This document shows positions 1 through 45,469 of a stretch of 64,000 nt of DNA, piece after piece. The position numbers were made by a program, and so were the translations under genes. The first letter of the stretch is position 1. Every line of letters starts with the position of its first letter. The notes beneath the pieces are model-generated. The model had not been told where the DNA came from, ran no database searches, and worked only from the letters and a program-made list of their open reading frames with translations. The stretch comes from Picocystis sp. L7 (lineage: Eukaryota; Chlorophyta; Picocystophyceae; Picocystales; Picocystaceae), in assembly GCA_020975725.1 (NCBI GenBank), contig QXJR01000005.1, positions 1,054,001-1,118,000 of the forward strand. The letters are read 5' to 3'.

Positions 1-3000
1 ACCTTCACCATCGACAAGGAGAAGGTCGAGAGGCCTTTTGCGGTGTGTCCCCTCAATACTTATGACGTGGTGTTGGGGATGGACTTCCTGGTCTCGTTCC
101 ACGCGAGCTTAGAGTTCCCAAGGAACGTTCTGACGTTTCGCCATCAAGGGAGAAAGCATGAGCTTCGCGGCGATTCGAACTTCGCCTCGAAGCATGGGAT
201 GGATGCATTCTGCTCTATGCAAGAAGCCGCCCAAATCCTACGTTCCAGCCGCAAGGCTCGTGAAGGTAGCCTTTTCGTGCTCATCCAACGTCTACCCGAC
301 TTGGAACATGAGGAGGACGATCTCGGAAAAAGGATAGCTAGCCTTACTCTCTCCGAAGATCACTCTCTCACCTCCCAAGGCAAGAAACGGCTCGACAAGC
401 TCCTCCATAAATATGCATCGGTCTTCCGAGGCAAAGAGGAAAGCTTTGCCTTGCCTCCCGAACGAGTGTCGGGAGAGGTGTGTCGCATACCCTTGGACGT
501 CGCAAAAGACGGTCCCAAAAGTCGGCCGCCTATCCGTCTCTCCCCGGAGAAGACCAAGGCATGTCGAGAGCTCATCGACCAGTTACTCAAAGACGGCAAG
601 ATGGCGCATTCGCCCGGATCGCCATTTGGAGCCCCGGTACTCCTCATACCGAAGAAGGATGGGCGATACCGTATTGTCTTTGATTACCGCATGCTGAACA
701 ACCTCACGATCAAGGACAAATATCCTCTTCCTTTGATCGATGACTTGCTCCTAGACTTGAGCACCTCGAAGTTCTTCTCGTCCTTTGACGTGAAAGACGG
801 GTTTTACAATATGCTTGTGGCCCCCGAGGATCAATACAAAACAGCATGCGTGACGCCGTTTGGTCAATTCGTTTGGCGTGTCATGCCGATGGGCCTGGCA
901 AACGCCCCCTCTATCTTCCAGCGCATGATGAACCGCATCGTGTCGCCCTTAACGAACACCAAGGCGTACATGGATGATATCCTCATCCACTCTGGGTCAG
1001 AGGCTGATCACTTGGATCACCTCGAGGCTTTCTTCCAACGCTGCAAGGCTGAGCATATCGTGCTCGCCAAGGAGAAGACGGCGCTCTTTAAGAAAGCCCT
1101 CGACTACGCCGGATTCCATATTGGCGATGGCCGAGTGATGATGCAAAAGCGTCTCGTGGAGAAAATTGAGAACTTTCCCCGGCCAACTAGCATCAAGGAG
1201 AATCAAAGCTTCTTAGGCTTGTGCAATTACTACTCCTCCTTCATTAAGGACTTCCCCACTCTTGCTGCTCCTCTTTCGGACATCAATAGAAAGGCGTTTA
1301 AAGGAGACTTCGTTGGCTCCTGGACTGAGGTTCAAGAGGACGCGTTCCAGCGCCTCAAGGCTGCTCTAGTTCAAGAGCCCGTCCTCGTCCAATACGATCC
1401 GAACAGAGAGACGCGCGTAGAGACGGATGCTAGTAAGATCGCTACCGGCGCGATCCTTTCTCAACTACATGAGGATGGCAAGTGGCATCCGGTTGCTTAC
1501 TATGGGCGAAAATTCAATGATGCCCAACGCAACTACTCCACAGCTGAGCAAGAGACTCTTGCTATTTTGCAAAGTCTCGTCAAGTGGAAGCATCTTCTGC
1601 AAGGACGCTCTTTCACTGTCTTAACCGACAACACTGCGTCCAAATACTTGCAAACGAAGAATGCTGATCAACTCTCCTCTCGGGAGATCCGCTGGCTAGA
1701 CGCCTTGGCTGAGTTTACCCCTTTCGAGGTCCAGTACCGTCAAGGCATCGCCAACCCCGGGGCGGACGCTCTCAATCGCACCGATTGGGACAGGGGCCAA
1801 GTCTTTCGTGTCCTCCATGTTGGGCCACCCGCGGAAGACTTGATTCCCTCCTTGGAAGAGATCTTGTTGATCGAGCCTATGCTCTCCCTCGATCTAGCGG
1901 TCATTGGTACCTTTCGATCGAAAGCTGCTCGCGAACGTTGGATGCTGCAATATGATCGGGCACGCCTTAGGGCCCCGTTCGATGGCGTACAAGCCGTCCC
2001 CTCCGCTTTGAGACAACATCCCTCGCGGAGGTAGCCAACCGCAAGCGGCTCCCGCAGGCTCACGTAGTGCTCCTCGCTGATGACAAGCACCTTGACCTTC
2101 CCGCTTGCGACCGACTCCTTAGTAGGTTGCCTGCCTCCACCCATGTGATTCATTCGGCCACGTATAATGGAACGTGCGCCCGTGCTACCAAGTCCTATAG
2201 GCTTGCGTCCGGTCTCACCGTGCGCACCACGTTGCAAGTCAACCCAGGTACTGATCTCAGGCTGATCACCTTAGCAGACCTCCTCCGGCGGTCGATGCCT
2301 TTGCTCACCATCCCAGCACTCGTTGAACCGCCTCCCGGGCCAGCTCTTCGAGCTATGGGTGGTTCCCTTGAGATTCCATCGGTTGACCCCCAGGAGGAAG
2401 ATTTGTATACATTGGTGCAACGAGCAGGTGAGAAAGATAAAGCTTATCAGGCTCTTGTAGCTTCACCACCGAAGAAACACGAAGTTCGTGACAACCTCGT
2501 GTGGCGCATCGATCCCGAGACGGATCGTGTTTGCCTGGTGGTGCCGAATGATGTTGCCGTGCGACAACGACTTGTGGACCGTGTCCACGCGGATGCCCAC
2601 TTTGGCGCTCAACGCACCTATGAGCAATGCCGAAAACATTTTGTTTGGCAAGGTATGAAGTCGTACATTATCGACTTTGTCCGTACTTGTCCTCGTTGCC
2701 AGCTCCTCAAGCCGAGCAACCGACCCGCGAAGCATCTCGTCCACATGCAAGAGATCTTCCCCTACCCTTTCCACACAATTGCGGTAGACGAAGTTGTCGG
2801 GCTTCCCGCCACTTCGAGAGGTCACAACGCGGTACTAACCGTCACATGCCGGTTTTCCAAGTACGCTCTCTACTTCCCGATGCACACTGATTGGACAACG
2901 CACGACGTTGCCAAGGTGCTCATGGACCGAGTAATCCATCAGTTCGGAAGTCCGCGAGTTGTCCTCACCGACAACGGGCCCCGATTTCGCGAGCTCTTTG

Positions 3001-4781
3001 ATCAATTCCTGATCGAGCTCGGGGCCAAGCATAAAAGCGGCGCGCCTTACCATAGCCAGACACAAGGAGGAGTGGAGGTGCAGCACTGCACCCTTTTATC
3101 CACCCTTCGGGCATTGGCAACATCACGGCCAGATGTAGAGTGGGACGAGCTGCTTCAAACAGCGTCCTTCTCCTACAATACATCGGTGCATAGAGTCACT
3201 GGCTACTCTCCTCATTACGTTCTCTTCGGTACAAACGCCAGTTTGCCGTGGACATATTCCCTCCTAAGAGAGAATGCAGACCCTGCGTGCAAGCGACTCC
3301 ATTCGCTGTTTGACGCTCGCCGAGAGCTTTATGCTCAAGTGCAAAAACGACACGCCCTCTATCAAAAACAAGTTGAAGATAGATTGAACCGCCAAAGGCA
3401 GGTTCGACGCTTTCGCGTCGGGGATAAAGTCAAACTGCAACGCGGTCTGAAGTCCTCCAGGGACAAAGGAAAGCTCGAGAGCTACTTTGTAGGGCCGTAC
3501 ACCATTGGGGAGGTGTTACCAAAGGGAGCTTACCGCTTGGTTCTACCCGACGGCACTCGACATTCCGCCACAGTCAATATCGAACGACTGCATCCCTGGC
3601 ATGAGAGCGACCATTCAAAGTTCCCCCATCGCGAACTTACTCCTGAACCTCAAACGGTTCCTCTCCCAAATGGATCAGAGGAAACTCGTTTCCAGGTAGA
3701 GCGCTTCTACATACGTGATTGGACCACTTTTCCACCTAGGTACTATGTCCAATTTGCTTGTAGCGCCGATGCCCCTCTTCACGAACATCGCGGGTTCGTA
3801 GAGGAAACGTCGGATCTCATCGACCACGTTTGTGAGATCGAGGAACTCCTCGGGCATTTCCCCGAGCAAGGCATCACCGCACGTAACAAGAGTCGCGTGT
3901 CTCGCTACAAGTCCAAATTTTATCACCAGAAGAGGCCCATCCTAAAGGATACGTGGCCGTACGCTCTGCCATACACTAGCCTAAGGAAACCGCGCTTTGC
4001 GAAACCGCCGAGTACGAACTTGGTTGGGCAAGTCGTGCAAGCAAGGTTCTTGCTCGAGCTCATGGACGGCTCAACTCGCCTAGAGTGTTGGACTGGCCTT
4101 GTGGAACGCTTTCAAAAAGCGGCGAAATCTTCTCCCGCTGCTTACGTCATCCGGTGGACGGACGGGACTACTTCCTCCTACCGTCCCGATGACGCACACA
4201 CGATCCTATTTGATCCTGTGGCGGCCGTGTACGGCCAAGCTTCCCTCGTCTCGCCAGAGCCACTCGACGATCGGGCTGAGTTGCGCTTAATGGTGGTCCG
4301 GGAGGGTGTTGCGCCCAGCCCTCTCGAGACACCTGTCTTGCCGAGGTTGTCCTTCGACGATGAGGAATATGCACTCAATCGTGAGGCTTTTGAGAGGTTC
4401 TCAATTATATTCGGGCCATTCACTTGGGACTTGTTTGCCTCGCCAAACAATGCCCAATGTCCGGCCTTCTTTACACGGGAGACCAATGCTCTCGCCCAAG
4501 AATGGGCTAGTCTTGGCAACCTATGGGCACACCCACCTTGTTGCCTCATTGACTCCGTGATAGGCAAGTTGGAGGCCGAACCTAGAGCCCTTGTGACCAT
4601 GATCACTCCGCATTGGCCAAAGGCTCCCTGGTTCCCTCGCTTGCAGCATCTCGCTACCTACCAGGAGGTACTAGGGAGGCATGAGGGAATATTCTCGGAT
4701 GCCCAAGGAAGGCCCTTGCCTTCCCCTCACTGGGACGTCCTCCTTAGCCATGTCCCTAGGCGGATGCAGGGCCAGGACTAA
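1..4781 (+). CDS. Gypsy family G Pol region: RT, RNase H, integrase, methyltransferase-like end
   Basis: This region encodes the enzymes that copy and insert the element. Visible parts in order: end of the retropepsin-linked segment (to about 480); RT with VPKKDG-like LIPKKDGRYRIVFDYR near 640-690 and the YMDD box near 968-980; RNase H with ETDASK near 1420 and the TDNTASKYL segment near 1625; integrase zinc finger H-H-C-C near 2590-2705 and DDE core near 2790-3110; IN C-terminal barrel near 3415-3595. A further stretch (4015-4200) reads GQVVQARF...WTGLV...VIRWTDGT and looks like a Tudor or chromo-type barrel (inference). The end domain (4370-4760) lies within the LTR. Homologous pol of gypsy families C and D has the barrel but not this end domain. 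Confidence 0.9.
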
Positions 4782-16500: not shown

Positions 16501-17013
16501 ACAAGGCGCCGGTCATGAACTTGACCTTCACCATCGATAAGGAGAAGGTCGAGAGGCCTTTTGCGGTGTGTCCCCTCAATACTTATGACGTAGTGTTGGG
16601 GATGGACTTCCTGGTCTCGTTCCACGCGAGCTTAGAGTTCCCAAGGAACGTTCTGACGTTTCGCCATCAAGGGAGAAAGCATGAGCTTCGCGGCGATTCG
16701 AACTTCGCCTCGAAGCATGGGATGGATGCATTCTGCTCTATGCAAGAAGCCGCCCAAATCCTACGTTCCAGCCGCAAGGCTCGTGAAGGTAGCCTTTTCG
16801 TGCTCATCCAACGTCTACCCGACTTGGAACATGAGGAGGACGACCTCGGAAAAAGGATAGCTAGCCTTACTCTCTCCGAAGATCACTCTCTCACCTCCTA
16901 AGACAAGAAACGGCTCGACAAGCTCCTCCATAAATATGCATCGGTCTTCCAAGGCAAAGAGGAAAGCTTTGCCTTGCCTCCCGAACGAGTGTCGGGAGAG
17001 GTGTGTCGCATAC
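13512..17013 (+). CDS. Gypsy family G Gag and protease region
   Basis: The frame is already open in the LTR, but the first ATG after the LTR (13512, MAKKKVASEG) is the likely start. A long basic, Ala/Pro-rich N-terminal part (13512-14300) is followed by helical, charged sequence and a retrotransposon capsid domain near 15000-15480 (PTFDGTKLDRHSWTDW, FSSELRRHYYP). A Cys-rich stretch near 16085-16140 (CALCNRTLDNCACENRYPC) is not a standard zinc knuckle. A retropepsin with FVDTGATHNFIS lies near 16360-16395. Gag forms the particle in the cytoplasm and the protease matures it (known for the family). The unusually long basic N-terminus could bind nucleic acid (inference). Confidence 0.85.
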
Positions 17014-17616
17014 TGAAAGGGACTCTGGGTCCCAGGCCCCCTACGAGGAGCCTCGGTCTCCCCTCCATCGTGGGTCACCCAACCAAGGGCCCCAGGATTC
17101 GGTTATACTAGCTTATGCGTGGGTGGTCCCTTCTGGCTTGATTGGAGACAGACAGTCCCCCCGGTCATTTTGGGTGAACCCCCGGTCCCTATACAGAGAT
17201 CGGTCCCTACCTCGAGGTACCAACACAGAAGGGTACTCTATCGAGGGTTCCCCAATCCCGAGGCTCTGCCCTGGAGGATCGGACGGCCAGAAGGGCTCCA
17301 GCAGCCCTTGCTCCCCAACAGAACGGATCTTCACCGTTGGGTTGGGCACCAGACCCACCAAGAGATCTTTGCGGAGCAGATCTCATGGTGGATAAGGCCT
17401 GGAAACACCACCCCCCTGTGAGAAGCCACCTAGGGCTTCCCACAGGATCTTGTAATTGAATTAGAATCTTCCTGATCTCAGCTCCAGGTGCGCTTTGGTT
17501 CTCCGCACCTCCCAACTCAACGTGGAACCTTCTCCCCACGCAAAGTGCCAGAAACTTGGGCTGTTGTACGACCTGCTGTCGCTTCACAGCCTGCCCCAAG
17601 CCATCCAACCACAACA
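17014..17616 (+). repeat. 5' LTR of element C
   Basis: 603 bp, begins TGAAAGGGACTC and ends CAACCACAACA. Preceded by target duplication ATAC. Internal sequence starts GAGTTTACGAGTCC; this is not an obvious complement of a tRNA 3' end. Confidence 0.94.
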
Positions 17617-17640
17617 GAGTTTACGAGTCCATCAGGCGTG

Positions 17641-18705
17641 ATGGAAGAAGATTCGGTTCTGGCTGCTACCACAGTAGCACGCCTTGAAGAAAGGATAATG
17701 GAGCTGGAAAGGGACTTGGCCAGGTCGCTGGCCACTCCCGAAGACATCGAGGAAGAGGAGGACTTCAAACATGAACCTGCTGCATTCAGCGACATGTTTG
17801 AAGCCCTCCGAAAGTCCGGAGCAGATAAAGGCATTGTAATGCCGTCTCCCACAGTCTTCACTGGGGAGGAGCTGAATAACGATCCTTATGCCCTTCACAG
17901 GTGGTATAAGGAGACCTCTTGCTGGGTCAAAGCAAGAGTGGCGAAGGACGTTCCGCAGGCGGCTATGGCCCTCCAAGCACTTGGAGGCACAGCCCGCCTT
18001 GCAATGGAAAACATGGAGACAGCAGCTCCTGGAAAGCTGCAGTCTTTGGATGCGATATTCAGCGCACTGCTGAATATCTTCCAAAGATGTGACCCAGGTC
18101 CAAAAGCATACGATGAGTTCCTCAGAACTCGTATGCGAACGGACGAAACAGCGGTGGAATTTCTGAACAGGTTGCTGTCACTGTCAGTAGTGATAGGCAG
18201 CAGCAAGGATCCCACAGTCTCCCGCATTTCCGATGCGGAACTGGTCGCACGCTTCCGCGCAAGGCTCCCGATATGGATGATTCAGCGGATGCGCGAAAAG
18301 CATCAGCTGCTGGTGACACTTCACCATACCCCGGACATCAGCCCCTGGGGATTGGAGGGAACTGCCATGGACATTGAGCAGAACTGCTCCAATGAACAGA
18401 CTGGACAGGCTGCCAAATGCCCACAGCGTACGGGAAGCGTCAGCGCTGTGAAGGACAGCAAGTCCTTCAAGGAGGAGGCAGTGAAGACCCAGCGCGCGTC
18501 AAAGCGCTTCAAGGACCTGGAAGAGAGGGACCAAGAATTGGTCATGGCCCTCCAGGGGGACCTCAAGGGCTATGAGCTGAAGGCAAAGCTCCCTGGTGAC
18601 GTGCTTCAGCGATGCCGCCAACTCTCGGTGTGCGATATCTGCCATCGCTATGGCCACAGCGGCAGCGGCTGTAAAGCCCGTGCCGTGTTCAGTTCAAAAA
18701 ACTGA
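17641..18705 (+). CDS. Element C Gag
   Basis: Start ATG 17641 is the first after the LTR (MEEDSVLAATT). Residues about 10-30 (VARLEERIMELERDL) suggest a short coiled coil. The middle (17830-18290) resembles a retrotransposon capsid: ELNNDPYALHRWYKETSCWV and LGGTARLAMENM are shared with element D Gag. A classical CX2CX4HX4C zinc knuckle, CDICHRYGHSGSGC, lies at the C-terminus and would bind the element RNA during packaging (known for the family). The length of 354 residues is usual for gypsy Gag. Confidence 0.9.
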   Translation: MEEDSVLAATTVARLEERIMELERDLARSLATPEDIEEEEDFKHEPAAFSDMFEALRKSGADKGIVMPSPTVFTGEELNNDPYALHRWYKETSCWVKARVAKDVPQAAMALQALGGTARLAMENMETAAPGKLQSLDAIFSALLNIFQRCDPGPKAYDEFLRTRMRTDETAVEFLNRLLSLSVVIGSSKDPTVSRISDAELVARFRARLPIWMIQRMREKHQLLVTLHHTPDISPWGLEGTAMDIEQNCSNEQTGQAAKCPQRTGSVSAVKDSKSFKEEAVKTQRASKRFKDLEERDQELVMALQGDLKGYELKAKLPGDVLQRCRQLSVCDICHRYGHSGSGCKARAVFSSKN

Positions 18706-18722
18706 ACGCGCTCCAGCGGTCG

Positions 18723-21700
18723 ATGGGGGTTGACCGCATGGAGCCGGGAGCGTTCGCTGACGCTCCCCCTAACCTGGACCTGCCCCCCTTGAAGGAACCA
18801 GGACTCAAGCAGAATGATTTGCAGAAGTTGCAGCTGCAGGCCGTCCAGAATCGCAGACCTGGACAGGTGCTGCCATTGCATGCAATAGATAATTTAGCTC
18901 CAAGGAAGGAGTTTCTCACCTCTCAATGCTCGTTCGGTCGCAGACCAGCGAAGGTGAGCAGTCAATCATACCAGGACACACTGTCCAGCTTCTCCTTTGT
19001 AACACCTCAGTTGTTACAAAGGATACAACGGGCTGATGCACAAGGCATCACCTGGAAAACCACAGATGAGTATGTGGAATTTGGTGTGGCTGTGGAGAAG
19101 GAAACCCACAAGGCCCCCATTGTGCGCCTGGAACTTAGTATGGACAGCTTCAGAGTTTGGCATGACTTTGGTATTGCTCCTGTCCAGGATTTTCAGTGTA
19201 TCCTGGGCAGTGACTTTTGAAACTTTTACCTGCAGGTGCTGAGTTGGCAGCAAAGGACCATGATCCTCCAAGACGCAACCGGACATCGCCATACAGTACA
19301 TGGCGATGGGGACTTCATCCAGGCACGACGACTCGACTTGATCGTCCCTGCCGCTGAAGTTAGGCAAGCGGTGCGCACACCGGGTTGCCTGTATCTCATC
19401 GTACAACCGCAGGACACGCGATGGGAATTGGAAACAGAGGAGCAGGAGCTCCAGCAGGACAGAAGCCAGTTGAGTGCGCAGGCCGCGCTCTCAGAAGCGG
19501 AACAGCAGAGGTTGGACAACCTCCTGGACCAATATTCAGACTGCTTTAAGGCAAGGAAGGGTCCACCCGCGGAACGGGTCCCCAACGAAAACTTCAGTAT
19601 CCCCCTGGAATGTGAAGCAAAACCACAGTTCACGCAGTACTATCGCTTGTCGCCAACAGAACGCGAAGAGTTGCGAAAGCTGCTGAGTGAATATGTGGAT
19701 GCAGGGAAAATGGATGTTTGTGCAGGCTCAGCCTGGGGTGCACCAGTGATCCTAGTCCCCAAGAAGGATGGAGGCTGGAGAGTGGTGTTCGATTATCGCA
19801 AGCTGAACAATGTTGCGATAAAAGATCGATACCCTCTGCCACGCATCGATGACTTTCTGCAGGGGCTGGGCGGTGCCCGTTACTTTTCCGCGCTGGACGC
19901 ATTGGACGGGTTCCATCAGTTGCCAATGAACCCAGAAGACATCCAAAAAACAGCAGTTCAGACTCCCTTTGGGAGTTACACCTGGAGGGTAATGCCCATG
20001 GGCATAGCAAATGCCCCAGCAGCCTTCCAGAGAATGATGAACAGGATTTTCGGACACTTGACCTTTTCTAAGGTCTATGTGGATGACATCCTGGTTCACT
20101 CAACCAGCAAGGAAGCTCACTTCCAGCACCTTGAAGACCTTTTCCAAGTGTGCAGGGCTGCAGATGTACGTTTGAAACGTACAAAGTGCCATTTCTTCTG
20201 CACCAAATTGGACTGGGTTGGGATCAGGATCGAGAACCAGGAGCTGCGGTGCGCACCGCAAAAGCTCAGCAAGATCCAGCACTTCCCCAAACCCAGATCG
20301 CAGAAAGAAAACATGGCCTTTTTGGGCCTATGCCAATTTTACTTGAGGTTTGTACCTCACTACTCAGATGCTGCAGCTCCACACACTGAGCTCAACAAGA
20401 AAAAGTACGCCCACGACTTTCATCGCTACTGCTTGGATCGACATGACCATGCTTTTGATCTGCTGGTGACCCAGCTCACCACTGCTCCTGCGCTGGCGCT
20501 GTACAATGAGGACCACGCGATCCGCATCGAGACAGACGCGTCAAATATTGGCATGGGGGCAGTACTGCACCAGGAAATCTCCCCGGGCGAATGGCGTCCG
20601 GTCGAGTACTGGAGCCGCAAGTTCAATTCAGCTCAGCGAAACTACCACGCTGCTGAACGCGAAACGTGCGCCATCGTTTACGCATTGGCTCACTGGAAGC
20701 ACTTGGTGTTTGGCCGACCGTTTACGGTCATCACCGATAACACAGCATCCAAGTACCTTACGACAAAGAGCGTACAGCAGTTGTCGCCCCGCGACTCTCG
20801 CTGGATCGAAAAACTGGCATACTATGCCCCATTCAATGTGGAATTCCGCCCTGGAAGTCAGAATGTGGCCGCAGATTACTTCTCACGTCACCCGGTGGAT
20901 AATTCAGCCAAACCGCTCAAGACGATTACTGTCCTGGACCTCTGTGCAGGAATGGGTACGACCCTTCGTGCCCTCGAACAAGCCATCCCAGAAACTGCAG
21001 AGTTGTCCATCAACTACATTGCAGTGGGGCAGGACCCCGATTGCGCAGCAATCGTACAGCGAGTGTTCAATTCTGTTCACCTCTCAAGACCTGGCCTGTT
21101 CATACGCGAAGACATCTTTCGCTATGGCAGCGATGTGCGCATCCTAGCACATCGTCGCTTGCTACCACCGGTGGACCTATTGATCGCAGGCGTGCCATGC
21201 CAGCCCTTTTCGCGCGCCAACACATCAGACAGAGACCCCCCTCTGGGGCTGCGCGATGTGCGTGAACTGTTCACAGCGGTGCGAGACATTCGCAACCGCC
21301 TGATAGGGGGACACTCCTACATCATAGAGTGTACCCCGTTCGCTCCGCATCTGCAGGATGACCTGGAGCGCATCAATGAATGGTTTGGAGAGCCACAAGA
21401 ACACAACATGGCTCACTTTTCTGCCCAGCAGCGCACTCGCTTATGCTGGACAGATCTGCCTCCACCCAAATCACAAGAACATCTATCGTCAGGGTTGCCC
21501 CTGACCTGGCAAGACTGCTTGGAACCTGGGGCAACTCCCCCGTTGGATAACCAGGGCCTGCCCCGCCTGAAATGCCCCACTCTGATGGCATCGCCAGGCA
21601 GTCACAGTGACCGCTCGCGTTCCACCTGGGTCATGGGACAAAACCAGGCCCTGCGCGAATTGACGATAGAGGAACGCGAACGCTTGGTGGGCATGCAGCC

Positions 21701-23637
21701 CAATGACACAGCAGGGTACAAGATTACCCCTGCTGCTCGCAGAAGAATGTGTGGAAACGCCTTTCCCGTAGGTTGGCTGTCCGTGTTAGTAGCAGATTGG
21801 TACCACTCGTGGATTCTTAAACTGCTCGGTACCCGTAGTGACATCACTATGAGTGGTTTGGTAACGGCTGCTCCACGACACTCCCCTCCTAGCGACAATG
21901 GATCGGCAGTACACCTATCAGGTGTACCTTTACTGTCACGCATTCGTACAGCGATTCAGAATGACCAGCAATACTTGACCTACCTGGACCACCCACCTGG
22001 TGGATATACATGCAGGAATGGTCTGCTGTTTTAAGACAATGCATCTGCAGAATTTGGACGCTACGCAGGTCCAGCAGTTCTGCGCGTCCCTCGAGACAAT
22101 GCGCTACGCCAGGATCTGCTTCACCTGGTGCACGATCGCATCCACTTTGGAGCCCATCGTACGTTCGAGTCAGCTCATCGACACTTTATCTGGCCTGGCA
22201 TGAAGACACACATCAAGCAATTTGTGGCACGGTGCCCTACCTGCCAGAGAATGAAGCCAGCAAACAAGAGCGCCGCTCGGCCTCATCTTCCAGAGATGAG
22301 GTTCTACCCTCATCCATTTCATACTGTAGTGGTGGATGTGGTCGAAGGCTTGCCAGTCACTCCTGATCACCACAATGCAGTGATCACCGTAGTCGACCGC
22401 CTTACGAAGTTTGCTGTGTACATTCCCATGCACACAACCTGGTGGGCAACGAAACAAGCCCGTGCGCTGCTGGATTGTGTGGTGTACAGGTATCATACCC
22501 CATCCATCATTCATACAGATAATGGGCCTGCGTATCGCAAACTGTTCGGCGCGTACTGTACAGCCTTGGGTGCCAGCCACAAGACCGGTACCCCGTACCA
22601 TTCGCAGTCGCAGGGACCAGTGGAACGCCAGCATCACACGCTTCTGCAGACGCTGCGCACATCGTCCGAACGCCCCGACAATTGGGATCAGTACCTTCAA
22701 GCTGCAGCGCACGCATACAACGATAGCGTGCACCCGTTCCTGCAACGCAGTCCCTTCGAGATGTTATATGGCTGTGCATCTTGCTTGCCGTGGCATCTGC
22801 AGATCACAACAGCAGACCTGCCAACAAGGCAACTGCTCACTACACCCAACAAGATGGTCACTGGTTTGCTAGACGAGCAGCGCAGAGTGTACAATGATGT
22901 ACGGGACCTGCTGGTGAAACGCGCACGCGAACAGGCAACCATGACACAGGACCTCCCCAACAGGACAGCCAAGTCGGGGGATATGGTCAAGCTCCAGTAT
23001 GGACTAAAGAGCACACGGGATCGCCCAAAACTGGATCCATACTGGGAAGGGACCTACTGCATTGACAGAGCATTGGGTCAGGATGCCTATAGCTTGAAGC
23101 TGCCCCCCGGTACTCGCTTTCAGAATCGATTCCACGTGGATCGTCTCAGACCGTGGATTGAATCAGATCTGACACTGTTCCCAATGGATCGCGCTGCGCA
23201 GCCATTGGACCAGCTTCCCACCTCAGTGCAGGAACTCGGCGGGACGCAATTACAGATTGCGCAATATCTGGTGCGCGACTTTGTGAATTTTCAGCAGGTG
23301 CAGTACAGTACTGGGCTCGCTCGCACGATGGCCAGACTTCCTGGGTCAGCGAAAGCGCACAGAATCTGGATGAAGTATTGGACCTGGAGGAAACGAATGG
23401 ATGCCTGCCCGAGCGCGGCATCGGCAAGCGCAACTTGGATGCCGTCCGGCAACACAAAGAAGACATCTACATGCAGACCCCCAATCCTATTCTGCAGAAT
23501 ACATGGACCTGGTCACCTCTGCCGTACAGCACTCGACAGCGGCAGCAGTGGAAGCCTCCTTCTAGCCTGGCTGGACAAATAGTGATGGAGGCCTTTGAGA
23601 TTGACCAGGGCGTGCAGTTCTATCAGGGTCTCGTATA
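18723..23637 (+). CDS. Element C Pol region: protease, RT, RNase H, DNMT, integrase
   Basis: Retropepsin-like segment near 18950-19215; RT with LVPKKDGGWRVVFDYRKLNN near 19757-19810 and YVDD near 20076; RNase H with ETDASN near 20530 and TDNTASKYL near 20735; a cytosine methyltransferase (20920-21830, separate entry); integrase with H-H-C-C finger (22140-22245) and DDE core (22330-22625); IN C-terminal barrel near 22975-23150; end stretch GQIVMEAF...VVWTDG resembling the barrel of family G. Placing a whole enzyme between RNase H and integrase is unusual among Ty3/gypsy elements. Element D has the same layout. Confidence 0.9.
20920..21830 (+). other. C5-cytosine DNA methyltransferase domain in element C Pol
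   Basis: This domain would transfer methyl from S-adenosylmethionine to carbon 5 of cytosine. Motif I (SAM binding) is VLDLCAGMGTTL; motif IV with the catalytic Cys is GVPCQPFSRAN (near 21190); motif VI is YIIECTPFAP; motif VIII is QQRTRLCW; motif IX is near ERERLVGM; motif X is MCGNAFPVGW (near 21750). All lie in the order known for C5-methyltransferases, so the fold looks complete. No extra chromatin-binding module is seen in front of it; RNase H ends about 15 residues upstream. The target-recognition stretch between VIII and IX is about 75 residues. Closest type (DNMT3-like, DNMT1-like or bacterial) cannot be settled by eye. Confidence 0.9.
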
Positions 23638-23775
23638 GACCGATGGACGCACGGTGGTATGGACTGATGGGTTCAAGACAAAACACAGGACATCAGAGCT
23701 CCAGGCTCTTTTGTACAACCCTGTAGCAGTAGTTTACAGTTGAACTTTTTCCTGCTACGCAGGGAACCGGGAGAC

Positions 23776-24378
23776 TGAAAGGGACTCTGGGTCCCAGGCC
23801 CCCTACGAGGAGCCTCGGTCTCCCCTCCATCGTGGGTCACCCAACCAAGGGCCCCAGGATTCGGTTATACTAGCTTATGCGTGGGTGGTCCCTTCTGGCT
23901 TGATTGGAGACAGACAGTCCCCCCGGTCATTTTGGGTGAACCCCCGGTCCCTATACAGAGATCGGTCCCTACCTCGAGGTACCAACACAGAAGGGTACTC
24001 TATCGAGGGTTCCCCAATCCCGAGGCTCTGCCCTGGAGGATCGGACGGCCAGAAGGGCTCCAGCAGCCCTTGCTCCCCAACAGAACGGATCTTCACCGTT
24101 GGGTTGGGCACCAGACCCACCAAGAGATCTTTGCGGAGCAGATCTCATGGTGGATAAGGCCTCGAAACACCACCCCCCTGTGAGAAGCCACCTAGGGCTT
24201 CCCACAGGATCTTGTAATTGAATTAGAATCTTCCTGATCTCAGCTCCAGGTGCGCTTTGGTTCTCCGCACCTCCCAACTCAACGTGGAACCTTCTCCCCA
24301 CGCAAAGTGCCAGAAACTTGGGCTGTTGTACGACCTGCTGTCGCTTCACAGCCTGCCCCAAGCCATCCAACCACAACA
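23776..24378 (+). repeat. 3' LTR of element C
   Basis: 603 bp, same ends as the 5' LTR and about one difference over the full length. Followed by target duplication ATAC at 24379-24382 and the resumed G element. Confidence 0.94.
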
Positions 24379-27300
24379 ATACCCTTGGACGTCGCAAAAG
24401 ACGGTCCCAAAAGTCGGCCACCTATCCGTCTCTCCCCGGAGAAGACCAAGGCATGTCGAGAGCTCATCGACCAGTTACTCAAAGACGGCAAGATGGCGCA
24501 TTCGCCCGGATCGCCATTTGGAGCCCCGGTACTCCTCATACCGAAGAAGGATGGGCGATACCGTATTGTCTTTGATTACCGCATGCTGAACAACCTCACG
24601 ATCAAGGACAAATATCCTCTTCCTTTGATCGATGACTTGCTCCTAGACTTGAGCACCTCGAAGTTCTTCTCGTCCTTTGACGTGAAAGACGGGTTTTACA
24701 ATATGCTTGTGGCCCCCGAGGATCAATACAAAACAGCATGCGTGACGCCGTTTGGTCAATTCGTTTGGCGTGTCATGCCGATGGGCCTGGCAAATGCCCC
24801 CTCTATCTTCCAGCGCATGATGAACCGCATCGTGTCGCCCTTAACGAACACCAAGGCGTACATGGATGATATCCTCATCCACTCTGGGTCAGAGGCTGAT
24901 CACTTGGATCACCTCGAGGCTTTCTTCCAACGCTGCAAGGCTGAGCATATCGTGCTCGCCAAGGAGAAGACGGCGCTCTTTAAGAAAGCCCTCGACTACG
25001 CCGAATTCCATATTGGCGATGGCCGAGTGATGATGCAAAAGCGTCTCGTGGAGAAAATTGAGAACTTTCCCCGGCCAACTAGCATCAAGGAGAATCAAAG
25101 CTTCTTAGGCTTGTGCAATTACTACTCCTCCTTCATTAAGGACTTCCCCACTCTTGCTGCTCCTCTTTCGGACATCAATAGAAAGGCGTTTAAAGGAGAC
25201 TTCGTTGGCTCCTGGACTGAGGTTCAAGAGGACGCGTTCCAGCGCCTCAAGGCTGCTCTAGTTCAAGAGCCCGTCCTCGTCCAATACGGTCCGAAGAGAG
25301 AGACGCGCGTAGAGACGGATGCTAGTAAGATCGCTACCGGCGCGATCCTTTCTCAACTACATGAGGATGGCAAGTGGCATCCGGTTGCTTACTATGGGCG
25401 AAAATTCAATGATGCCCAACGCAACTACTCCACAGCTGAGCAAGAGACTCTTGCTATTTTGCAAAGTCTCGTCAAGTGGAAGCATCTTCTGCAAGGACGC
25501 TCTTTCACTGTCTTAACCGACAACACTGCGTCCAAATACTTGCAAACGAAGAATGCTGATCAACTCTCCTCTCGGGAGATCCGCTGGCTAGACGCCTTGG
25601 CTGAGTTTACCCCTTTCGAGGTCCAGTACCGTCAAGGCATCGCCAACCCCGGGGCGGACGCTCTCAATCGCACCGATTGGGACAGGGGCCAAGTCTTTCG
25701 TGTCCTCCATGTTGGGCCACCCGCGGAAGACTTGATTCCCTCCTTGGAAGAGATCTTGTTGATCGAGCCTATGCTCTCCCTCGATCTAGCGGTCATTGGT
25801 ACCTTTCGATCGAAAGCTGCTCGCGAACGTTGGATGCTGCAATATGATCGGGCACGCCTTAGGGCCCCGTTCGATGGCGTACAAGCCGTCCCCTCCGCTT
25901 TGAGACAACATCCCTCGCGGAGGTAGCCAACCGCAAGCGGCTCCCGCAGGCTCACGTAGTGCTCCTCGCTGATGACAAGCACCTTGACCTTCCCGCTTGC
26001 GACCGACTCCTTAGTAGGTTGCCTGCCTCCACCCATGTGATTCATTCGGCCACGTATAATGGAACGTGCGCCCGTGCTACCAAGTCCTATAGGCTTGCGT
26101 CCGGTCTCACCGTGCGCACCACGTTGCAGGTCAACCCAGGTACTGATCTCAGGCTGATCACCTTAGCAGACCTCCTCCGGCGGTCGATGCCTTTGCTCAC
26201 CATCCCAGCACTCGTTGAACCGCCTCCCGGGCCAGCTCTTCGAGCTATGGGTGGTTCCCTTGAGATTCCATCGGTTGACCCCCAGGAGGAAGATTTGTAT
26301 ACATTGGTGCAACGAGCAGGTGAGAAAGACAAAGCTTATCAGGCTCTTGTAGCTTCACCACCGAAGAAACACGAAGTTCGTGACAACCTCGTGTGGCGCA
26401 TCGATCCCGAGACGGATCGTGTTTGCCTGGTGGTGCCGAATGATGTTGCCGTGCGACAACGACTTGTGGACCGTGTCCACGCGGATGCCCACTTTGGCGC
26501 TCAACGCACCTATGAGCAATGCCGACAACATTTTGTTTGGCAAGGTATGAAGTCGTACATTATCGACTTTGTCCGTACTTGTCCTCGTTGCCAGCTCCTC
26601 AAGCCGAGCAACCGACCCGCGAAGCATCTCGTCCACATGCAAGAGATCTTCCCCTACCCTTTCCACACAATTGCGGTAGACGAAGTTGTCGGGCTTCCCG
26701 CCACTTCGAGAGGTCACAACGCGGTACTAACCGTCACATGCCGGTTTTCCAAGTACGCTCTCTACTTCCCGATGCACACAGATTGGACAACGCACGACGT
26801 TGCCAAGGTGCTCATGGACCGAGTAATCCATCAGTTCGGAAGTCCGCGAGTTGTCCTCACCGACAACGGGCCCCGATTTCGCGAGCTCTTTGATCAATTC
26901 CTGATCGAGCTCGGGGCCAAGCATAAAAGCGGCGCTCCTTACCATAGCCAGACACAAGGAGGAGTGGAGGTGCAGCACCGCACCCTTTTATCCACCCTTC
27001 GGGCATTGGCAACATCACGGCCAGATGTAGAGTGGGACGAGCTGCTTCAAACAGCGTCCTTCTCCTACAATACATCGGTGCATAGAGTCACTGGCTACTC
27101 TCCTCATTACGTCCTCTTCGGTACAAACGCCAGTTTGCCGTGGACATATTCCCTCCTAAGAGAGAATGCAGACCCTGCGTGCAAGCAACTCCATTCGCTG
27201 TTTGACGCTCGCCGAGAGCTTTATGCTCAAGTGCAAAAACGACACGCCCTCTATCAAAAACAAGTTGAAGATAGATTGAACCGCCAAAGGCAGGTTCGAC

Positions 27301-40485: not shown

Positions 40486-43400
40486 TCATAACACTTCAAA
40501 CAACCCATTAACGACGTTAGTCACCAATCCTCGGTAGTATGCGGCTTTGTGGTTGCCCAAATGGAAAAGTACTTGCACCACACAACCGATGAGGTTGGTG
40601 GGCACAGCAACAATAGGTCGTCGTCTAGTGTGGTACGGTTGCTTCGCTTGCGTCCAAGTATTGATCATGATTGGGTCAGCTGACTGTAGGTAAACTGTCC
40701 TCTTGTGTGTCTTGACTGCGTCATAATTCGAGGGGCTGATGCCCTTTTGAGGGATAGAGCCATTGTTCTCCTCGAGAGGTAGGAATTCTTCCAACAGGGC
40801 AGAGGACTCATCCACCCAGAAAAAGCGTTGCCACGCGTCTGCCAGGTTGCTTTCAATCCAGTAACGTACGGGGCGTGCAGGAAACACTGAGTAATCCCGT
40901 AACAAGTATCGTCGAATACGATAGGTAGTTGATTCACTTTGCATGGCTGCAGTATCAGGCAAGGGTGCCGTTGCGGGCTGCCGATGTTCATCCATTGGGA
41001 AGAGAGTGAGATCTGAATCCACCCAATGTTCCAACCTGTTGGCGTGGATACGATCTGAAAAGGCGGAGCCCGGTGGTAGTTCCAGTTGATATGCACCATT
41101 CTTCAGCACCTTCTTGATGAGATAAGGACCTACATAGTAAGGGTCCAATTTGTGCTTATCGGTGGGCCCCTTGAGCCCATACTGCACCTTCACCTTGTCT
41201 CCAACAGCAAACACCTTCTTAGGTCTGTGCGCTGTTGCTGCCGCAACATTCTGCGAAGCCTTCACCAAGTTTTCCTGTACAACCCGATAGACTGCACGAT
41301 GTTGCTCCAGCAGGTCTGTTACTCTTTTATCGAAGGTTGTTACTGTCAGGTGATCAGCAGGTCCATCCTTTGTGGGCAACTGGAGGTGCCACGGTAGCCT
41401 TGATTGACAACCAAAGAGCAATTCAAAAGGGGAATGTTTGGTTGCATCATGCACAGAATCATTGTAAGCATGTGCTGCTGCCTGTAAATACTGATCCCAT
41501 TGATGTTTGTTCTCGCACGTCGTCCGTAACGTCTGCAGCAGGGTGCGATGTTGCCGTTCTGCACCACCCTGAGACTGTGAATGATAAGGCGTTCCGGTTA
41601 CGTGGCGGACACCTAGCGCGGCACAGAATGCTCGGAATAATGCTCGATAAGCCGGTCTGTTATCTGTGTGAATATGCATAGGTGTATGAAACCGGTAGAC
41701 GAGGCTGTCCATAAGACACTCAGCTTGTCTATGAGCACTCGAGGTAGAGTGGATAGGTATATAGATGGCGTATTTAGTAAACCTGTCCACCACTGTCAAT
41801 ACTGCATTATGACCGAGGGCAGTAAGGGGTAAGTTCTCCACCATATCTAGTACCACCGTGCGAAAAAGGTAAGGGTGGAACTTCATTTCTGGACAGAGCG
41901 GTGTGTGTCGTAACCAGTTACCTCGTTTCTGAAGCTGACAGGCAAGACAGCGAGCGACAAAGTGCTCGATGTGCGATCGAATACCAGTCCAGGTGAAATG
42001 TCGCTTGCGTCAGCGAGCGTACGTGCTGATCCAAAGTGTCGATGATCGTGCACCATGTGTAGCAGTTCCTGTCGTAGAGCGTTATCTGCTGGTACCACCA
42101 GTGCTGGTTGAGCATTGGCCGATTGCTCGAACAGCAAACCATCGCGCACTGTCATGCCTTCCGGCGGTGCGCGCAGTAATTTCTTGTACTCTGGATCAGT
42201 TTCAGCGGCGACGCGAATCCTATCCAGTATGGGAGGCAACTGACCCGTAAGACCTGTGCGCAATGATTGCGTAGATTGCTGACTTGTAATAGACGCGATT
42301 GACCCGCACACAGTCCCAGCAGGACTGCGGCCGGCTAGCAGTCGAAGCGTCCGTGTGTTGTTCACCCATCGGTGTAACATGTGTGCAATCCAACCCATGG
42401 GGAAGGCGTTGCCGCACATGCGCTGCCGGCTGGTTTCGCTAACATTCTTTGCAGCAGTGTCACCAGTCCGCATGCCGACGAGTCTTTCTCGCTCGCTGAT
42501 GGTCAGCGGGCGTAGAGTCCCATCTTGATCGTGCACCCAGGTGGAATGTGAACGGTTGCTGTGCGAGCGTTCAGTGGCCATTAAAGTGGGGCACTTCAAG
42601 CGGAGTCGATTCAATGCGTCCAAAGGGACCTTTGATCCAGGTTCTAGGCAATCCTGCCAGGTCGTACGTATTGCCCCCATGTGTTCAGGCTCATGCTTGA
42701 GGGGTGGTAGAGAGGTCCAGCACAGCCGGACTCGAGCTTGCGCACAATACTTTGAGAGGTCTTCGCAAATAGGCTCTCCAAACCAGTGTGCAATCTTGTC
42801 CAGATGGGTTTTCAAGTGCGGGGCGAACGGCGTACATTCCAATATGTAGTATGGCGACCGCAACCGCTTGTGTATCTTTGACACTGCTGTGAACAGTTCA
42901 CGTTCGTCGTAAAGGCCCAGCAGTGGCTTTGATGTGTCGGTGTTCGCCCGCGAAAATGGTTGGCAGGGCACCCTAGCAATCAGCAGGTGGACTTGGGGGA
43001 GCTTTCGTCGATGCGCCAATTCAGTCACATCGTTTCCATACCGAAAGATGTCCTTGCGCATAAAGAGCCCAGGGCGTGCTAAGCGAACCTGGTGGAACAC
43101 GCGTGCAATTATGTTGCGGCAGTCTACATTTTGTTCCACTGCTATGTAATCCAAGGTAATATTGGTCGATTCTGGTATTACGCATTCCAGCGGACGCAGC
43201 GTTGTTCCCATACCTGCACATAAGTCCAAGATGCAATATGTGTCCGTATCGTTCACCTTAGCTGAGTGCCTGGAAAGGTAATCGGGTCCAACGTTCTCTG
43301 TGCCTGGCCTGTACTCCACCTTGAACGGGGCAAAGTACGCCAACTTTTCGATCCATCGCATTTCGCGCGGAGACAGCTGCTCAGTAGCTTTTGTTCCAAT

Positions 43401-45290
43401 AAAGTGACTGGCCTTGTTGTCAGTGATGACCGTAAACTACTGGCCAAACAGGAGGTGCCTCCAATGCTGCAGTGCATATAATATTGCACATGTCTCCTTC
43501 TTAGCAGGATGGTAATTCTGTTGGGCAGCATTGAATTTCTTTGACCAGAACTCAACTGGATGCCAACCTCCCTCTTGATCGTGCTGCATCAAAGCTGCTC
43601 CCATCCCCACATCGGAAGCGTCGGTCTCAACCCGTATGGGCCTGTCTTCATCAAATAGAGCCAATACCGGGGCTGTGGTCAAGGCTTTGATGAGCTCCTG
43701 GTATGCCTTCTCCTGTGGCTCTTTCCAATATGAAGCGAAGCCGTGCTTCAGAGCAGCTTGATTCAATTCTGTCAAGGGAGCTGCCCGTTCCGCATAGCGA
43801 GGGACGAGCCTCATATAAAACTGGCAGAGACCAAGGAATGCCATGTTTTCTCGCTGCGTTCGGGGACGCGGAAATTGTTTGATCTTGGACAGCAAATGAT
43901 CAGTGCAGGCGAGCTGACCATCGCGGATGCGGAAACCAATCCATTCCAGTGTACTCATGAAAAAGTGGCATTTAGACCTCTTCAGCCTAGTGTCGGCACG
44001 TTCGCAGGTGGCGAAGAATTCTTCCAAATGTTTGAAGTGTTCCTCAAATGTTTAAGAGTGAACAAGAATGTCATCCATGTACACTTTCAGGTACAATAAA
44101 TGACCAAACACCCTGTTCATCATACGCTGGAACATCGCGGGTGCGTTTGCTGCCCCCATGGGCATCACTTTCCAGACGTAAGAGCCAAACGGGGTGACCA
44201 CCGCCGTCTTGTCGATGTCATCAGGATGCATGCGGATCTGATGAAACCCATCCAACGCATCGAGCGATGAGAAGTATTTGGCTCCTCTGAGATTCTGTAA
44301 GTAATCGTCGATCCGTGGAAGCGGATATCTGTCTTTAATAGTCACACTGTTCAGCAAGCGATAATCGAAAACGACCCGCCATCCCCCATCTTTTTTGGGG
44401 ACCAGGATCAGTGGGGCACCCCAGCTGGATCCTGCGCATAGGTCCATCTTTCCAGCTTCAACATACTCAGTCACCAGCTCCTTCAGGGCAGTTTGCTGCT
44501 GAGGGGAAAGCCTGTAATAGTTTCTGTACTGTGGAGTGGCTCCTTCTTCCACCTGGATCTTGAATATTTCGCCCGGTACCCGTTCTGGTGGTAGTTCTGT
44601 GCGGGGCTCGAACAAATGCTTGAATTGTTTGTTCACGAGGTCGTCCAGCCGCTGTCGGTGAGCGTCATCAAGAGGCCATTCATCGCTGACCTGGCTATGC
44701 ACGCTGCTGAAGTCTGAATCTTCGCTGAGTAGTTCGGGCGTTGTATCTACCGGCTGAATCATTAGAAGCAAGCAGCCTGGATCCTTCACCGCTTTACGTG
44801 CCTCACTACGGGGCACAATCAGGTCCAGTTTTCTTGAAGATATGAACTGGTGGTCTCCATAAACAGTAAACTTTGTACCATTGCTATTTCATAGCACCAT
44901 GCGATGATTCTGCCAGTCCAGTGCTGTCAAGTGCTTGTGGCAGAAGGTTGCTCCCAGAATGCAGTCAAAGGTCTCTAGAGGAGGAACTCCGAAGTCGATG
45001 CAGGCCTAGAACCCATCGATCGAGAATTGCGCTTTAATTACTGGGGCAGTGTGGAGCTGCTGGCCCACAGCCACGCTATAATTAAAGACCGCTGATGTAT
45101 ACTGCGAGGACAGTCCCTTAGGGTCAGCTTGCTGCAGCTCTTTGAAGAGGCCTTCCCTCATGAAGCAATAACTTGCCAAGGTGTCCAGGTAAGCTTGTGT
45201 TCTGATTTTATGTGGCTTCTTTCCAAAGTAAGTCTCGGCAGCCAGGAATTCATGTCTAGGCCTGTCATTGGTAAGTGAGTGCAGGCACAC
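40486..45290 (-). CDS. Element D Pol region: protease, RT, RNase H, DNMT, integrase
   Basis: On the minus strand: retropepsin-like segment near 45010-45290; RT with LVPKKDGGWRVVFDYRLLNS near 44360-44420 and YMDD near 44070; RNase H with ETDASD near 43620; methyltransferase (42330-43240, separate entry); integrase with zinc-finger remnants near 41900-42060, DDE core near 41560-41880 and C-terminal barrel near 41040-41190; end stretch GCVVQVLF...YYRGLVTNVVNG like the barrel of C and G. The frame is interrupted in several places. Domain order matches element C exactly. Confidence 0.86.
42330..43240 (-). other. C5-cytosine DNA methyltransferase domain in element D Pol
   Basis: Motif I ILDLCAGMGTTL, motif IV RVPCQPFSRAN with the catalytic Cys, motif VI YILECTPFAP, motif VIII QARVRLCW, motif IX near ERERLVGM and motif X MCGNAFPMGW occur in the correct order. 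It follows RNase H by about 20 residues and precedes integrase. The domain aligns along its length with that of element C but with many substitutions, while the motifs stay fixed. That pattern suggests the enzyme was kept by selection while the two families diverged (inference). Confidence 0.88.
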
Positions 45291-45469
45291 TACATTCCCA
45301 TCTTTGGTAACCGGGGTGGCTGCAAGTTTCGCTCCCGGCTCCGTCCCGGTAACCGTAGTTACCGGACGGAGGGTCTTCTGTTTTTTGGGGCACCCATTAC
45401 GGATGCCATTTTGCAGGCTGCCTGATCATGTCCGTAACGGCGACAGCGTAGGCACAGCGCGTTCGCTAG

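Follow-up and report, generated by a model that had tools for sequence, protein, structure and literature searches.

Results

A recent Ty3/gypsy copy with a methyltransferase domain in Pol

We analyzed a 64,000-nucleotide stretch of the green alga Picocystis sp. L7 (the window; C3:1054001-1118000 in a genome of 20.5 Mb and 30 contigs), in which a Ty3/gypsy retrotransposon at positions 17014-24378 carries a C5-cytosine DNA methyltransferase (DNMT) domain within its Pol polyprotein. The element lies on the plus strand between two direct TG...CA long terminal repeats (LTRs) of 603 bp (17014-17616 and 23776-24378), whose comparison gave one mismatch in 603 bp, and is flanked by the target site duplication ATAC (17010-17013 and 24379-24382). 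Reverse transcriptase (RT; PF00078, E 7.1e-34, 19755-20231) and RNase H (PF17917, E 8.6e-32, 20514-20825) precede the integrase, whose zinc-binding and core domains (PF17921 and PF00665) are found at 22128-22604. This is the Ty3/gypsy order, and the closest solved RT is that of Ty3 (E 3.6e-77). The Ty3/gypsy identity, the near-identical LTRs with their ATAC duplication, and the recent insertion had been proposed in a first-pass annotation made from the sequence alone, and these features bear them out. The open reading frame (ORF) at 19236-22034 encodes RT (residues 174-332), RNase H (residues 427-530) and a Pfam match to PF00145 (residues 565-662), and the integrase is encoded by a separate ORF at 22128-23582.

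The DNMT domain (20913-21845, plus strand) was defined by Pfam, alignment, profile and fold. PF00145 is matched with 35.6 bits (E 8.9e-9) in the ORF and with 40.5 bits in the isolated domain, above the curated cut-off of 22, which confirms the claim of a C5-methyltransferase embedded between RNase H and integrase. Motifs I, II, IV, VI, VIII and X were scored in an alignment of 26 element DNMT domains. The catalytic cysteine of motif IV (PCQ) and the GN of motif X are present in 26 of 26 sequences, and motif VIII retains its glutamine in 24 and its two arginines in 26 and 25. The motif II glutamate is found in 24 sequences; the window copy has glycine there. Motif VI contains its glutamate in 25 of 26 sequences, but the following residue is cysteine in all 26, while the usual residue is asparagine (ENV). 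The motif order claimed at first therefore holds for I (DLCAGMG), IV, VI, VIII and X, except that motif VI reads Glu-Cys instead of Glu-Asn.

By sequence profile and by fold, the domain is nearest to DNMT3A/3B, and its predicted model aligns with 267 of the 285 residues of the DNMT3 domain, which is nearly the whole domain. The domain is not permuted: motif I comes before motifs IV to X, which is not the order of DRM-type enzymes. Viral fold matches were to proteins of phages and giant viruses, at E-values above those for DNMT3. A viral donor was considered and rejected, as one alignment scan of IMG/VR gave 13 pattern matches, none of them a relative by tblastn.

Copies, clades and occupancy in the genome

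A protein search found at least 127 places with the DNMT domain on 24 contigs (identity 51 to 100%, counting the copies in the window), which rules out chance or an assembly chimera as the origin of the domain. Frames of at least 1600 codons with a stop-free match were found at 55 of the 127 places, and 16 matches contain an internal stop. Contigs C3 and C4, 11.6% of the genome, hold 50 of the 127 places, and many matches to a Dam-like domain (described below) as well. Relatives in databases are up to 88% identical (P0001, from an ENA contig); among the matches listed, none carries the name of Klebsormidium nitens. The DNMT also follows RNase H in a second clade (L005, L007 and L008; 37-39% identical) and in a third kind, represented by L050, which is 91% identical to P0018.

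For Ty3-type elements, 150 RNase H matches were scored, out of 201 first-look candidates. A DNMT was found within 1 kb downstream in 119 of them, and in 25 a Dam-like domain follows at a distance of 1.5 to 4.5 kb; one of the 119 has both, and six have neither. Two of these six look split by insertion. One (C3:1079291) is the window's outer element, with an RT nearly identical to a Dam-type RT, and the other (C3:797444) is upstream of L014, an inserted copy that has another DNMT match on its far side. We note that these elements fall into a few clades, so these counts are not independent events.

Selection and descent of the DNMT domain

We fetched 20 copies of the two nearest families, 11 of the window family and nine of a second family. 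In the window family, pooled dN/dS was 0.14 for RT, 0.12 for RNase H, 0.19 for DNMT and 0.33 for integrase, with the RT figures inflated by L018 and L019, whose RT is divergent or shifted. In the second family (nine copies; eight for RT and seven for RNase H after a length filter), the values were 0.12, 0.23, 0.38 and 0.33, respectively. Among 18 representatives, dS was infinite in 152 of 153 pairs for RT, 145 for RNase H and 130 for DNMT.

RT and DNMT distances in clade 1 are correlated (0.93 over 153 non-independent pairs), indicating that the DNMT was inherited together with Pol. The RT of the window copy shares 40% identity with that of clade 2 and 52% with an RT of the Dam type. Neither one nor two DNMT acquisitions was rejected (p-AU 0.40 and 0.54) on a long-branched tree with yeast Ty3 as its root, and long branches are also why we do not rely on the DNMT tree containing P0018 and P0024.

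Age and integrity of copies

LTR pairs were found in 18 of the 20 fetched copies, with 97.8 to 100% identity and with only a partial LTR in L011-L013; L019 has no LTR pair and L021 has other repeats only. The LTRs of six of the 18 paired copies show no difference, one of them over part of the LTR, supporting the earlier proposal that this type was mobile recently. Fifteen copies have LTR pairs of full length, and by eye 14 of them fit a target duplication of 4 bp; L025 is the misfit. A 1689-codon Pol frame is present in five of the 11 window-family copies (L010, L012, L013, L015 and L018).

The window copy contains 81 singletons, compared with 3 to 37 in eight siblings, despite its nearly agreeing LTRs; within the four domains, 10 are nonsynonymous and 11 synonymous. 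We considered that a defective copy had been moved in trans and set this aside, because a separate sub-lineage explains the pattern equally well; gene conversion between the LTRs is another possibility.

Other features of the element and the window

A gag-like ORF (17488-18705) overlaps the 5' LTR and, by eye, contains a zinc knuckle of the CCHC type close to its end; a Pfam search gave no significant match. The presumed protease part of Pol (18723-19220) is ended by an in-frame stop at 19218, and is named from its position, as Pfam gave no match. A second in-frame stop (22032-22034) is located between methyltransferase and integrase. The integrase is followed by an SH3_Tf2-1-like part (PF24626, 22977-23156; 27.3 bits, below the cut-off of 30) and by the C-terminal tail of Pol (23157-23582), which by eye departs from the frame of its siblings near the end and stops early. 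A purine-rich tract (23761-23775, by eye) precedes the 3' LTR. All these features are on the plus strand.

The Pol tail after the SH3-like part (for example, L010:1505-2428) has a conserved stretch of ~190 residues. Pfam gave no convincing family match for it (SH3_Tf2-1; Tudor_3 in P0003, E 0.2), and its predicted model (pLDDT 61, pTM 0.30) had no Foldseek match at E <= 0.001. A reader domain in the tail was thus rejected, as the Tudor_3 match and the weak model allow no fold to be named.

The window copy sits inside another Ty3-type element, with a gag/protease ORF on one side and RT/RNase H and integrase ORFs on the other. On the minus strand at 40486-45446 is a second DNMT-bearing Ty3-type element of the same clade, with an interrupted Pol; its DNMT domain (42324-43241) is 58% identical to that of the first. 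A second type of Ty3 element, with a Dam-like domain (PF05869) after the integrase, is found at 2067-4781. The Dam-like domain has 101 matches genome-wide, including 23 pairs spaced 8.0-8.3 kb. One copy, L056, has a single 2672-codon frame running from the 5' LTR into the 3' LTR; its Dam match falls within the 762-bp LTR, and its LTRs are 100% identical. The usual Dam-family motif is (D/N)PP(Y/F/W), and the Dam-type copy in the window has HPPC at this position, which makes its activity doubtful.

Host methyltransferases and possible donors

The host DNMT set, assigned partly by eye, comprises DNMT1/CMT-like, DNMT2-like, chromodomain CMT, PWWP-bearing and DRM-type proteins (L001-L004 and L049). 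The chromomethylase-type L003 is 100% identical to a metagenome entry, followed by Coccomyxa (44%), Trebouxia (40%) and Myrmecia (40%). L004 is a DNMT with a PWWP-like stretch, seen by eye; 'ChloroDNMTs' with PWWP are named in PMC12344493. L049 matches DRM2 (3e-28), and part of it also matches DNMT3A/3B, but its motif order is permuted (by eye), unlike that of the element domain, which disfavors simple capture of the host gene. Taken together, L003, L004 and the DRM-type protein make the host look like a green alga of the trebouxiophytes.

Proteins labeled Pavlova_lutheri (a haptophyte) in EukProt resemble these elements: seven of 18 match elements of this genome with 97-100% identity across the aligned part. 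P0005, P0013, P0146, P0162 and P0164 are among the nearly identical proteins, and P0005 shares a zero-length branch with L036. This label conflicts with the green-algal look of the host's own methyltransferases. We think that the EukProt record is mislabeled or mixed; horizontal transfer may be an alternative source of the matches. According to excerpts of PMC9998398, no DNMT3 was found in green algae of MMETSP, and it seems absent from the haptophytes studied.

Discussion

Hosts use methylation as one of their chief defenses against transposons, which makes it puzzling that some transposons bring a methyltransferase of their own. Conservation of the DNMT and its co-inheritance with RT extend across many copies. 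We give about even chances to the reading that the window holds a recent, defective copy of a Ty3/gypsy family whose Pol carries a DNMT3-type module that methylates the element's cDNA before integration. In uninterrupted copies, the element's protease would cut the polyprotein inside the virus-like particle, and the released methyltransferase would work beside RT and integrase. New double-stranded cDNA may then be methylated prior to integration, so that it resembles host DNA and escapes recognition as foreign, or so that the new copy's chromatin state is set. We favor this step because of the position of the domain in Pol, its conservation alongside RT and integrase, and the CG activity in yeast reported for SymbioDIRS-Dnmt3 (PMC5890265).

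Several observations weigh against methylation of cDNA by this family. The window copy itself is broken: with two in-frame stops in Pol (19218 and 22032) and without the acidic residue of motif II, it is unlikely to methylate anything, contrary to the first-pass suggestion that it could act on its own or host DNA. The enzyme of uninterrupted siblings may methylate element or host DNA and yield the tolerated, silenced copy that the first-pass annotation proposed. A PDB search with the window domain as a single sequence gave weak matches (DNMT3B 0.04; a bacterial enzyme 0.02), and the Glu-Cys form of motif VI might alter catalysis. In the mutation spectrum, taken from nine and eight copies, C>T was not in significant excess at CG (79 of 108 C changes; p 0.11) or at CHG (112 of 162; p 0.29) compared with CHH (99 of 157). 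Per site, C>T is more frequent in CG and CHG contexts, and other C changes are more frequent there, too; we rejected a deamination signature. PMC5890265 also reports that the DNMT of KnitGypsy-Dnmt3 was inactive in yeast, a result its authors deem inconclusive, and that retrotransposons without a DNMT move in those genomes, too.

The cysteine after the motif VI glutamate in every aligned sequence would also fit a domain that is no DNA methylase now, and either acts on RNA or is retained in the polyprotein for its structure or for nucleic-acid binding. The DNMT diverges faster than its neighbors (median dN among the 18 representatives 0.38, versus 0.21 for RT and 0.25 for RNase H; mean distance in clade 1 0.39, versus 0.24 and 0.29). 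However, the catalytic cysteine, the motif VI glutamate, the motif VIII arginines and the motif X GN are retained, and the predicted model covers nearly all of the DNMT3 domain, so we regard this reading as rather improbable. Still more doubtful is the idea that the host genome or resident copies, rather than cDNA, are the enzyme's main target, in self-restraint or by disturbing host silencing. The internal parts of 17 DNMT elements have a CpG observed/expected ratio of 0.71-0.78, and three stretches of the window's Dam-type Ty3 elements one of 0.98-1.03, but the ratio is as low or lower in the window's copia element (0.58) and in the host locus L004 (0.60), so DNMT elements are not alone in being depleted of CpG. 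The host also seems to own several DNMTs. It is very improbable that the domain is an unselected passenger, captured by chance and carried along by a successful family, although constraint is weaker in the second family (DNMT dN/dS 0.38) and 16 of the 127 domain matches contain a stop. The motifs are conserved, synonymous sites are saturated across subfamilies while the protein is conserved, the DNMT lies beside 119 of the 150 RNase H matches, and pooled dN/dS already suggests that it evolves below the neutral rate.

Two unrelated families, DNMT3-like C5 enzymes (two or three clades) and Dam-like N6 enzymes, nearly partition the scored Ty3 elements. A methyltransferase might thus be an entry ticket for Ty3-type elements into a host that destroys or recognizes unmodified cDNA, a demand answered at least twice. 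We consider this unlikely; if true, the host has a restriction-like defense against retroelements. With more than 100 such domains in only 20.5 Mb, 55 of them in long frames without stops and some flanked by identical LTRs, and with Dam-like relatives next to them, this compact genome is a convenient setting to test what the enzyme brings to the element.

DNMT-bearing retrotransposons, one Gypsy among them, have been published (PMC5890265), and Dam- and Dcm-encoding Ty3/Gypsy and DIRS elements occur in green algae as well (excerpts of PMC6338049). Among the matches listed, titles and beginnings of abstracts gave no account of the present family. The points added here are the lineage of the host, LTRs of ordinary anatomy, a motif VI that reads Glu-Cys, a high DNMT occupancy with Dam-like elements alongside, and support from profile and fold for calling the domain DNMT3-like. 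Methyltransferase-family domains have likewise been added to the polyproteins of DIRS elements with Dam-like domains (excerpts of PMC5890265 and PMC6338049) and of the Dam-type Ty3 elements here, which differ in enzyme family (PF05869) and in its position after the integrase, inside the LTR in the one copy examined. According to excerpts of PMC5890265, SymbioDIRS-Dnmt3, with a DNMT3-class domain in Pol, and SymbioLINE-Dnmt encode DNMTs and reach high copy number like the window family, but they belong to other orders (tyrosine recombinase and LINE, respectively) in dinoflagellate hosts. Closest by published description, on which this likening rests, is KnitGypsy-Dnmt3 of Klebsormidium nitens (PMC5890265), a Gypsy element in several copies (Ka/Ks under 0.2) whose Pol has a non-rearranged Dnmt3-type C5-methyltransferase. 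Its host is a charophyte and its repeats are DIRS-like according to the figure legend, whereas the element described here has ordinary direct LTRs and 4-bp target duplications.
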